DNA of 64,000 nt from Planotetraspora silvatica (GTDB lineage: Bacteria > Actinomycetota > Actinomycetes > Streptosporangiales > Streptosporangiaceae): assembly GCF_016863315.1 (NCBI RefSeq), contig NZ_BOOQ01000013.1, positions 62,001 to 126,000 of the forward strand, read 5' to 3'. Positions within the stretch are counted from its first letter, which is position 1. Every line of letters starts with the position of its first letter. This document shows positions 35,615 through 55,645 of the stretch, in pieces. The position numbers and the translations under genes are program-made. The notes under the pieces were generated by a model. That model searched no databases. It saw only the letters and a list, made by a program, of their open reading frames with translations, and had not been told where the DNA came from.

Positions 35615-36790
35615 ATGGACGACCGACAGCGTCTCGACCAGGCCACGGCCGGGTTGCACCCCCCCTTCGCGGTGGTCGACCTCGATGCGCTGCGGTCCAA
35701 CAGCGCCGACATGGTCCGCCGGGCGAACGGCAAGCCGATCCGCGTCGCCAGCAAGTCGATCCGGAGCCGGGCGGTCCTCGAACGCGTTCTCGCCATGGAC
35801 GGCTTCGCCGGGATCATGGCGTTCACGCTTCCCGAGGCGCTCTGGCTCGTGTCATGCGGTCTGCGTGACGTGCTCGTGGCGTACCCGTCCGTGGACACCG
35901 ACGCTCTCCGCACACTCGGGTCCGACCGCCGCGCCGCCGACGAGATCACGGTGATGGCCGACTCGCCGGGCCACCTGAATCTGATCGAAAGCCTCCAGCT
36001 TCCTCACCAGGTCCGGATATGTCTTGATATGGACGCGGCGTTTGTGGCGTTCGGCGGGAAGTTGCGCGTGGGGGCCTTGCGCTCCCCCGTCCGCGAGCCC
36101 GACCAGGCGGCCCGGATCGCCGAGGACATCGCCGGCCGCCCCGGAATGCGCCTGGTGGGACTCATGTCGTACGAGGCGCAGATCGCCGGCGTGGGCGACA
36201 GGGTCCCCGGCGCGTACGGGCGGGTCGTCCGGTGGATGCAGGCCAGATCCCGCCAGGAACTCGCCGTACGGCGCGGGCGGGTCGTGCAGGCCGTACGGCA
36301 GGCCGCCGACCTGGAGTTCGTCAACGGCGGAGGCACCGGCAGCATCGAGCGGACGGCGGCGGAACACGCGATCACCGAGGTCGCGGCCGGCTCGGGCTTC
36401 TTCCATCCACGGCTGTTCGACTTCTACCGGAGCTTCAGCGGGCGGCCCGCGGCGCTGTTCGCCCTGCCCGTGGTGCGCAAGCCGTCCCCCGGTGTCGTGA
36501 CGGTACTGGGCGGTGGGTATCCGGCCTCAGGTCCTTCAGGAGCCAGCCGGCTGCCCTACCCCCACCTGCCGGCGGGGCTGCAGTACGACTCCAACGAGGG
36601 GGCGGGCGAGGTCCAGACCCCATTGGTCGGAGCCGCGGCCCATGACCTGCGGATCGGCGACCGCGTCTGGTTCCGGCACGCCAAGGCCGGCGAGTTGTGC
36701 GAGCGCTTCGCCAGCCTGCATCTGATCGAGGGCGACCGGATAGTCGAGGAAGTCCCCACCTACCGAGGAGAAGGCCAAACCTTCCTCTGA
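35615..36790 (+). CDS. Alanine racemase-fold PLP enzyme (D-threonine aldolase/D-serine dehydratase-like)
   Basis: A 391-residue protein with an alanine racemase-type barrel. The PLP lysine is in IRVASKSIRS after PPFAVVDLDALRSN. A GGGTGS phosphate-binding loop lies near residue 240, and the C-terminal domain has GDRVWFRHAKAGELCERF, where His and Cys could bind the metal used by D-threonine aldolases and D-serine dehydratases. The substrate is probably a D-beta-hydroxy amino acid, but the family also holds less defined amino acid deaminases. It is monocistronic, followed by the large repeat array. Confidence 0.85.
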   Translation: MDDRQRLDQATAGLHPPFAVVDLDALRSNSADMVRRANGKPIRVASKSIRSRAVLERVLAMDGFAGIMAFTLPEALWLVSCGLRDVLVAYPSVDTDALRTLGSDRRAADEITVMADSPGHLNLIESLQLPHQVRICLDMDAAFVAFGGKLRVGALRSPVREPDQAARIAEDIAGRPGMRLVGLMSYEAQIAGVGDRVPGAYGRVVRWMQARSRQELAVRRGRVVQAVRQAADLEFVNGGGTGSIERTAAEHAITEVAAGSGFFHPRLFDFYRSFSGRPAALFALPVVRKPSPGVVTVLGGGYPASGPSGASRLPYPHLPAGLQYDSNEGAGEVQTPLVGAAAHDLRIGDRVWFRHAKAGELCERFASLHLIEGDRIVEEVPTYRGEGQTFL

Positions 36791-36810
36791 CCCCCTCCCG
36801 CCCTTTCCCG

Positions 36811-37198
36811 CGTGATCATGCACAGGTTCGTGAATGGATGGCCTGACCAGCCCAAACCCCGAACGTGATCATGCACAGGTTCGTGGATTACGCCGCCGAC
36901 CTGGCCGTTCTTCATCCGTGATCATGCACGAATTCGAGCGCAGCCCACACGGCCTGCGCCTCTTCAGTGTGTGATCATGCACAGCGGCGGCCCCCGTCAC
37001 ATGGGAAGCCCATCGGCTGACCGACATTGCATGATCACGAGCCACGCTTTCCCAGGTGGGCGGCCATGCAGAAGAACTTGCGCATGATCACGAACTGGAT
37101 CCGCCCAGGTCGGCGGCGCAATCCCCGAATCCGTGCATGATCACGTTCGGGACCCGGGCTGGTCAGGGGTCATCTTCACGAACCTGTGCATGATCACG
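36811..37198. repeat. 53-bp periodic repeat array with inverted halves (array A)
   Basis: Four forward units have TGATCA at 36813, 36866, 36919 and 36972, spaced exactly 53 bp. Four reverse units have TGATCA at 37032, 37085, 37138 and 37191, again exactly 53 bp apart. The two central cores are 60 bp apart. Forward units start TGATCATGCAC, usually followed by AGGTTCG or similar. The outer two units on each side also match in their spacers (for example CTGACCAGCCC and GCGCCGCCGACCTGG), so arms of about 100 bp are true inverted repeats. The array lies between convergent genes and carries no open frame. It has no cas genes nearby and its spacers are related, so it is not a CRISPR. Confidence 0.95.
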
Positions 37199-37243
37199 CC
37201 CAAAACCCCCTGGCGGGACCTTCGTGCCCGGCTTTGAAATCAC

Positions 37244-37280
37244 CGTCGCCCCATTGCTCTGCGAGAGCAATGGGGCGACG
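37244..37280 (-). terminator. Terminator of the DUF3618 gene
   Basis: A perfect 16-bp stem (37244-37259 with 37265-37280) closes a 5-nt loop, 5 bp past the DUF3618 stop on the minus strand. Being nearly symmetrical it could also stop plus-strand transcripts coming through the repeat array. Confidence 0.85.
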
Positions 37281-37285
37281 GGCGG

Positions 37286-37609
37286 TCAGCGGTTGCGGCG
37301 GCGGAGCAGGATGATCGTGGCACCGACAACGAGGACCGCGCCGAGGCCGATCAGCACCGGCGCCATGGACTGCGCCGGCGGATACCGCTCCTCGCCTTCC
37401 ATCTCGGCGGCGGAGCGCGATGTGGAGCCCCCCACGAGATCCCCGAACGACGACACCAGGTGTTCGGCGTTGGCCTTGACCTTGGCGACGCTCCGCTCGG
37501 CCACCCGTTTCGGGCTCACCCGGTCCGCGATGGCGTCGACCGTGCGAGCCAGCTCGGCCCGGGTGCGCTCGATCTCTCGTTCCAGCGCATCGGGATCGGT
37601 GTCAGCCAT
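37286..37609 (-). CDS. DUF3618 membrane-tail protein
   Basis: A 107-residue protein. The N-terminal region LEREIERTRAELARTVDAIADRVSP is the DUF3618 helix. A Ser/Glu linker follows, then one C-terminal membrane helix (MAPVLIGLGAVLVVGATIILL) and a basic end (RRRNR). Such proteins are common in actinobacteria, often near phage-holin-like membrane proteins, and their role is not known. It is a single gene divergent from bcp. Confidence 0.85.
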   Translation of the reverse strand: MADTDPDALEREIERTRAELARTVDAIADRVSPKRVAERSVAKVKANAEHLVSSFGDLVGGSTSRSAAEMEGEERYPPAQSMAPVLIGLGAVLVVGATIILLRRRNR

Positions 37610-51376: not shown

Positions 51377-51564
51377 GGATCATGCACGACCACTCACGGT
51401 AAGAATCCTCACAACCTCCCCCCACCCCCCTTCCCCGGCGTGATCATGCACAGATTCGGTGGCGGCACCGCTGACCTGCCACGATCCCGGCCGTGATCAT
51501 GCACAGGTTCGGAGAAAACGGCCTCACCAGCGGAAACACTCGGCGTGATCATGCAAACAGGCGC
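51377..51564 (+). repeat. Repeat array B, forward units
   Basis: Cores lie at 51377 (GGATCATGCAC, imperfect), 51441, 51494 and 51546, with spacings of 64, 53 and 52 bp. The units at 51441 and 51494 begin TGATCATGCACAG followed by ATTCG or GTTCG, like array A. The spacer after 51441 shares the CTGACCTG element seen in array A (GACCTGG). The array lies between the murI start and the 3' end of the thioesterase gene and should contain the murI promoter. Confidence 0.9.
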
Positions 51565-54238: not shown

Positions 54239-54294
54239 CTTTCATGAGCCTGCTTTCATGAGCCTGCTTTCATAAGCCTGCTTTCATAAGCCTG
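54239..54294. repeat. Four tandem 14-bp repeats abutting array C
   Basis: CTTTCATGAGCCTG occurs twice, followed by CTTTCATAAGCCTG twice (54239-54294). On the minus strand the unit reads CAGGCTTATGAAAG, close to the CAGGTTCGTGAA found just after the core in array A. It therefore looks like a local expansion of part of the 53-bp unit. Confidence 0.9.

Positions 54295-55645
<1,351 letters not shown>

Follow-up and report, generated by a model that had tools for sequence, protein, structure and literature searches.

What is an intergenic stretch of DNA for in which one short core recurs every 53 bp and then runs back in the opposite orientation? The question arises within a 64,000-nt stretch of Planotetraspora silvatica DNA (hereafter, the window), where an earlier note made from the sequence alone had described eight TGATCA cores in two inverted arms between convergent genes and had considered a phased protein-binding array, a structural RNA or terminator, or a MITE-like element. 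Mapping by position confirmed the layout. TGATCA starts at 36813, 36866, 36919, 36972, 37032, 37085, 37138 and 37191, i.e. with spacings of 53, 53, 53, 60, 53, 53 and 53 bp; cores 1-4 read TGATCATGCAC on the plus strand and cores 5-8 lie on the minus strand, where two of the four finish TGCGC and TGCAA, not TGCAC. The arms are complementary over 66 nt (36842-36907 with 37102-37167; 86%) and, at their ends, over 25 nt (36810-36834 with 37175-37199; 100%), and the genes on either side (35615-36790 on plus, 37286-37609 on minus) indeed converge. Beyond what had been noted, the innermost (fourth) core of each arm is missing the GGTTCG extension and is referred to here as a half-core, the arm plan being three 53-bp units followed by this half-core. 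The window contains the following features:

35615..36790, plus strand: left convergent gene, Ala_racemase_N by domain match; best hairpin past its stop codon weak (-11.0)
36811..36969, plus strand: plus arm, three 53-bp units starting at 36811, 36864 and 36917, from the sequence
36970..36982, plus strand: terminal half-core of the plus arm, without GGTTCG, from the sequence
36983..37026, no strand: inner spacer separating both arms; inner core-to-core offset 57
37027..37039, minus strand: terminal half-core of the minus arm, from the sequence
37040..37198, minus strand: minus arm, three 53-bp units starting, from outside to inside, at 37198, 37145 and 37092, from the sequence
37243..37281, no strand: perfect 18-bp hairpin past the stop codon of the minus gene; best hairpin -37.9 kcal/mol
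37286..37609, minus strand: right convergent gene, DUF3618 by domain match
51439..51555, plus strand: second array of two units plus a half-core, flanked by two minus genes and directed against them
54294..54412, minus strand: third array, two units and a half-core, from the sequence

The first plus-arm unit begins 20 bp past the stop codon of the plus gene, and the minus gene's own arm begins ~90 bp from its stop codon. At the third array, a PALP gene (54408-55355) takes its stop codon from the TGA of the first core (window 54408-54412).

Copy number, unit anatomy and dialects

Exact TGATCATGCAC occurs 711 times (365 + 346 by strand) in the 8.66-Mb genome from which the window derives (G000), against ~2.3 copies expected on both strands under a dinucleotide model, and its reversed-letter control yielded 0 copies. 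This abundance is not due to chance, and the genome-wide search that the earlier note had proposed returned further copies in the hundreds. The arrays are scattered across the genome at about one per 30 kb (13 in 400 kb). Of the 172 exact CGTGATCATGCA cores in the window, G000:C2 (400 kb), G004:C1 (382 kb) and G003:C1 (400 kb) together, 169 lay outside genes or at gene edges and 3 were intragenic.

Each unit joins the fixed CGTGATCATGCA core to an extension that varies by lineage, its dialect, and to the block TGACCTGC. The consensus of 302 non-redundant units (382 before similar spacers were removed) spans 53 bp in total: CGTGATCATGCACAGGTTCG comes first, then a variable segment, then TGACCTGC and AAC.C. 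Nearest-core spacing across the window and 400 kb of G000:C2 was exactly 53 in 62 of 67 cases; a helical-period test on the spacer was not significant. Arms hold 3-5 cores, the half-core included, and the gene-nearest unit is the best consensus match in 15 of 22 arms, with one tie. Of 17 mirrored arrays, 6 have inner cores offset by exactly 24 bp, an offset also present in loci of G060 and G143. Folding of single units (60 of 239 tested) was no better than that of shuffles and no Rfam match came near threshold, by which the structural-RNA suggestion was rejected.

Exact pairs 52-54 bp apart, whose search among relatives had likewise been suggested, were present in all five genomes of the genus (5, 60, 321, 332 and 401 pairs) and in none of the other 55 genomes searched. 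The dialect is mostly CGTGATCATGCAGAAGTTCG in P. thailandica (G001) and is CGTGATCATGCACAGGTTCC in sp. A-T 1434 (G085), while the variants of G143 and G060 include CGTGATCTTGCAGTTTGTCG and CGTGATCTTGCAGTTTCTCG, respectively. Among 150 family genomes, a relaxed core pair matched 10 and a sequence model 14 at E 0.001, G062 and G100 with a single weak match each. At E 0.5, the model gave 53 matches in G077, 78 in G115, 41 in G028 and 7-15 in four others; the first three carry related forms of the element. Across 246 class genomes, the exact core was counted 753 times in G000, 289 in G182, 287 in G241, 65 in G143, 35 in G180, 29 in G300 and 22 in G223, and 0-6 times in the remaining 239. The core is thus abundant but patchy across distant actinomycete families, where it comes with other extensions, periods, or inverted pairs: mostly direct repeats of 37-38 bp in G182, a 31-44 bp period in G300. 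In 80-kb samples of G091, G122, G028 and G115, a lag-53 signal was not seen. The viral contigs, plasmids and phages searched yielded no copies, leaving aside 36-bp plasmid matches in Nocardia (E 0.009, two records) and Skermanella (E 0.6).

Two variant arrangements were observed alongside. Loci L134, L144, L223 and L251 of G077 hold 41-bp direct repeats that mix CGTGATCATGCA and CGTGATCTTGCA cores. In G028, G115, G223 and G241 (L211, L252, L248, L243), the 12-bp core occurs as one inverted pair, which can fold into a bidirectional hairpin; this form may be an ancestral or alternative version.

Arrays of G000:C2 with mapped flanks occupy the same place in 11 of 11 cases in P. mira (G004) and, by profile, in 10 of 12 in G003, with a core-chain method recovering one of the two G003 arrays missed by profile. 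Judged by these placements, the arrays are inherited vertically. Between G000 and G004 (11 arrays), each core position from 1 to 10 has 0-2 changes out of 53-54, position 11 (A or G) is variable (14/54), and spacers change at a rate of 0.158 against 0.059 at 4-fold sites. Versus G003, the rates are 0.134 for core 0-12, 0.407 for the spacer and 0.185 for 4-fold sites, and are rougher because the 12 alignments include loci without a profile-detected G003 array. On these rates the core looks to be under selection, while spacers outpace 4-fold sites. In both comparisons with G000:C2, spacer divergence is ~2-3 times that of 4-fold sites.

Gene ends with and without arms

We examined 58 arms from the window and 400, 382 and 400 kb of three species, using our own codon-model gene caller. 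In 45 of 58, the outer core lies 3′ of a co-directional stop codon, at -33 to +90 nt. Convergent genes flank 33 of these arms, 25 are in tandem regions (12 directed with and 13 against the upstream gene), and none lies between divergent genes. A second sample comprised 91 8-kb loci of five genomes, chosen by exact core pairs among the matches listed, with 99 array regions. Here, tandem regions held 22 mirrored arrays and single arms running 18 with versus 7 against the gene (p 0.043), and convergent regions 18 mirrored and 19 single arms; back-to-back arms were found in 0 of the 99, and one such region exists in G115. Divergent genes flank 15 arrays (14 of 98 at a 40-bp minimum), e.g. L057, L059 and L114; here small genes may have been overlooked, or the exceptions are genuine. 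In most cases an arm reads away from a stop codon. The co-directional stop is the TGA of the first core in 12 of 45 cases on the sampled contigs and in 15 of 55 in the 8-kb loci among the matches listed; a random frame gives ~1/3 in arms a gene runs into, and this overlap alone is therefore no signal.

Gene ends with an arm of their own tend to be without strong hairpins. In the sampled contigs, the median hairpin at own-arm ends was -15.5 (n=35) versus -26.0 at array-free convergent ends (n=214; p 2e-11) and -23.0 at ends of the same regions without their own arm (n=9). Indeed, in the Planotetraspora samples an intrinsic-terminator hairpin past the stop occurs at own-arm ends at the random level, and a strong one is present instead in inverted pairs of the G241 type. 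The 91 8-kb loci among the matches listed gave medians of -16.2 kcal/mol at own-arm ends (n=55), -24.1 at array-free ends (n=68; p 4.5e-9) and -20.2 at same-region ends without their own arm (n=19). Tandem ends of these listed loci followed arm direction: those facing only an opposite arm had a median of -26.1 (n=7) versus ~-14 (n=40), and a hairpin of <=-22 at 5 of 7, against 5 of 40 ends with a co-directional or mirrored arm (Fisher p 0.0028). The hairpin was not merely displaced, being located behind the arm in only 4 of 18 cases in the same loci. Of 11 gene ends in the core-poor genome G162 whose P. mira orthologs bear arms, 5 have a hairpin of <=-22, against 0 of 11 among the matching P. 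mira ends. Among distant genomes, one agrees with this exchange and two small samples do not; distant G182 gave -12.3 at ends with their own core (14), -20.0 in the same region without (7) and -29.5 at array-free convergent ends (8).

Proposed termination and rival readings

The arrays sit where the usual hairpin stop is missing, and therefore look like an undescribed transcript-ending device. We favor, at a probability of roughly 0.55, directional, non-hairpin transcription-termination arrays, likely with a putative DNA-binding protein as their reader, similar to phage stoperators. Each arm would be a directional transcript-end element standing in for a hairpin terminator, and an array would be mirrored because each of two convergent genes has an arm to itself. 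A polymerase exiting a gene would meet 2-4 full asymmetric sites (CGTGATCATGCA, dialect and TGACCTGC) 53 bp apart and then a half-core; a sequence-specific protein, probably bound to each unit, would halt or release polymerase arriving from the gene side, and its specificity would drift by lineage. More tentatively, the arrays could belong to a chromosome-wide termination system of Actinomycetes in which a dedicated trans-acting reader recognizes the 12-bp class-wide core plus dialect, and which displaced many intrinsic terminators. If true, this would add a further sequence-specific form of bacterial transcript ending, encoded in DNA arrays of regular spacing whose dialect differs by species, and would help explain hairpin-less gene ends in high-GC actinomycetes. 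Engineering would also gain directional insulators, and the forms found in nature (53, 41 and 37 bp, and inverted pairs) would make up a series in which to study how a reader and its hundreds of sites co-change.

The closest known systems each share part of this plan. Excerpts of PMC9283540 describe the stoperators of cluster A mycobacteriophages (L5, TipsytheTRex repressor) as asymmetric intergenic sites oriented with transcription that are proposed to halt elongation, with reversal abolishing the effect. The arrays have in common with them many asymmetric sites in short actinobacterial intergenic DNA and an orientation tied to transcription, but stoperators are phage-borne 13-mers at >20 sites, whereas the present sites are chromosomal and number in the hundreds, and the search for a matching reader found none. 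Nor are stoperators known to occur in 53-bp arrays. By analogy, the arrays may work like stoperators; as chromosomal arrays without a found reader, we do not claim them as members of that class. With intrinsic and bidirectional terminators they share the position past stop codons, and the inverted pairs of G028, G115, G223 and G241 can form hairpins, but the arms here are unstructured, asymmetric and of fixed sequence. TAACTGA direct repeats of Beggiatoaceae, as excerpted in PMC4679880, are similarly short, patchy and intergenic and possibly horizontally spread, but are heptamers, mostly just 5′ of start codons, with a proposed translational role. No described family with this plan was among the matches listed in the literature, as judged by titles and abstract openings, in line with the earlier note, which knew of none.

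Rho-dependent terminators are not known to have a fixed sequence or period, but the arrays resemble them in placing unstructured, C>G sequence past stop codons. That they are Rho-dependent modules without a dedicated protein, the C-rich unstructured spacer RNA being rut-like and the core a strong polymerase pause site, is possible but doubtful. C exceeds G in sense spacers of 9 of 9 samples, with C/G of 1.08-1.65 in 53-bp lineages against 1.02-1.03 in the control, and of 1.78, 3.42 and 5.25 in G077, G300 and G182 (these three counted from base 12, not 20), but C/G is only 1.08-1.28 in 5 of 9; the C-rich, G-poor character is strong in G182 and G300 and slight in Planotetraspora. Placed at -11 to +1, the 12-bp core fits G-10, T-3, G-2 and Y-1, with A or G at +1, of the elemental pause consensus G-11G-10T-3G-2Y-1G+1 (excerpted from PMC6062546), and if the reader were universal (polymerase, NusG, Rho), a common core in distant families would need no shared gene. 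This leaves unexplained the near-invariance of TGATCAT, TGACCTGC at a fixed distance, the 53-bp spacing, the dialects and the 0-6 exact cores in 239 of 246 class genomes. On the sequence evidence, then, a core that is identical even across distant families, the C>G excess and the partial pause fit favor polymerase, NusG and Rho, and a motif in two blocks, the constant 53-bp spacing and the dialects favor a DNA-binding protein.

Chromosome-organizing or nucleoid-protein arrays excluded from promoters, with the hairpin deficit a side effect of position, seem unlikely: conserved sequence, fixed spacing, a density of one array per 30 kb and the lack of copies among the plasmids, phages and viral contigs searched would all suit them, but they predict neither the order of the arms nor the hairpins retained at ends with only an opposing arm. 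REP/BIME elements are extragenic, species-specific, present in hundreds of copies and found as inverted pairs and clusters, and the arrays resemble them in these respects. We nevertheless regard it as improbable that the arrays are remnants or relatives of mobile repeats (MITE, REP, domesticated transposon ends) whose transposase has been lost or is not yet known. The patchiness, the lineage-specific sequence, the mirroring of the ends and the location between genes are consistent with it, as is one array inverted between G000 and G003/G001. Against it, loci are the same in sister species (11 of 11 in G004, 10 of 12 in G003), which does not point to insertion polymorphism between close relatives, cores are conserved, no copies were found in the viral contigs, plasmids and phages searched, most core-bearing genomes are without a RAYT-type transposase, array units are not imperfect palindromes with a stem-loop, and REP/BIME differ in period. 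A DNA-uptake signal doubling as a terminator is highly improbable. A constant core with species dialects recalls neisserial DUS (excerpts of PMC3630211), and dyad pairs of a USS-like motif are described at 3′ ends in Actinobacillus (excerpts of PMC5217627), but uptake sequences reach thousands of copies (PMC3630211, same excerpts) and also lie inside genes, whereas intragenic cores here are rare and tandem 53-bp units differ from the DUS plan. The interpretation in the earlier note is partly supported: termination is favored by the orientation rule and hairpin-less own-arm ends, a protein-binding array is favored by motif and spacing though no candidate proved to be its reader, and a MITE-like origin is disfavored by the shared loci and conserved cores.

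Candidate readers and possible array turnover

Among candidate proteins, RAYT was rejected, as PF01797 (Y1_Tnp) is present in only 4 of 17 core-bearing genomes, with G000 among the 13 that lack it. An extra NusG (RfaH/ops-like) was likewise set aside: PF02357 has a single match in 35 of 35 genomes, so no specialized paralog was seen. P0001, a chromosomal protein of 157 aa (G000:C1:42044-42514; L274), was found by phrog_357 and is homologous to the stoperator immunity repressor of a mycobacteriophage (PDB 7r6r, E 1.8e-5). Its homologs are conserved, mostly single-copy and present in 63 of 150 family genomes, including G000 and 10 of 10 tandem-array genomes. They also occur in ~52 family genomes without detected arrays, are absent from six core-bearing genomes (G182, G241, G180, G300, G223, G115) and, at 83% identity between G000 and G001, keep the DNA-reading region almost unchanged though dialects differ. 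On these grounds P0001 was set aside as the reader, and it serves as a lead for Streptosporangiaceae only.

CRISPR arrays have unrelated spacers between identical repeats, whereas the spacers here share TGACCTGC and arrays are scattered through the genome. CRISPR-like growth at the gene end is not claimed because G000/G004 arms mostly agree along their whole length and G003 does no more than lean toward such growth. At L123, L073 and L081, inner units look orthologous among three species; the units nearest the gene are dissimilar and show each species' own dialect, which suggests turnover at the gene end. Finally, the array that lies inverted in G000, compared with the orthologous locus in G003 and G001 (L191 and L018), is the one near 346755-346930 of G000:C2 (L036), and in this orientation its inner end can, by eye, form a strong hairpin.
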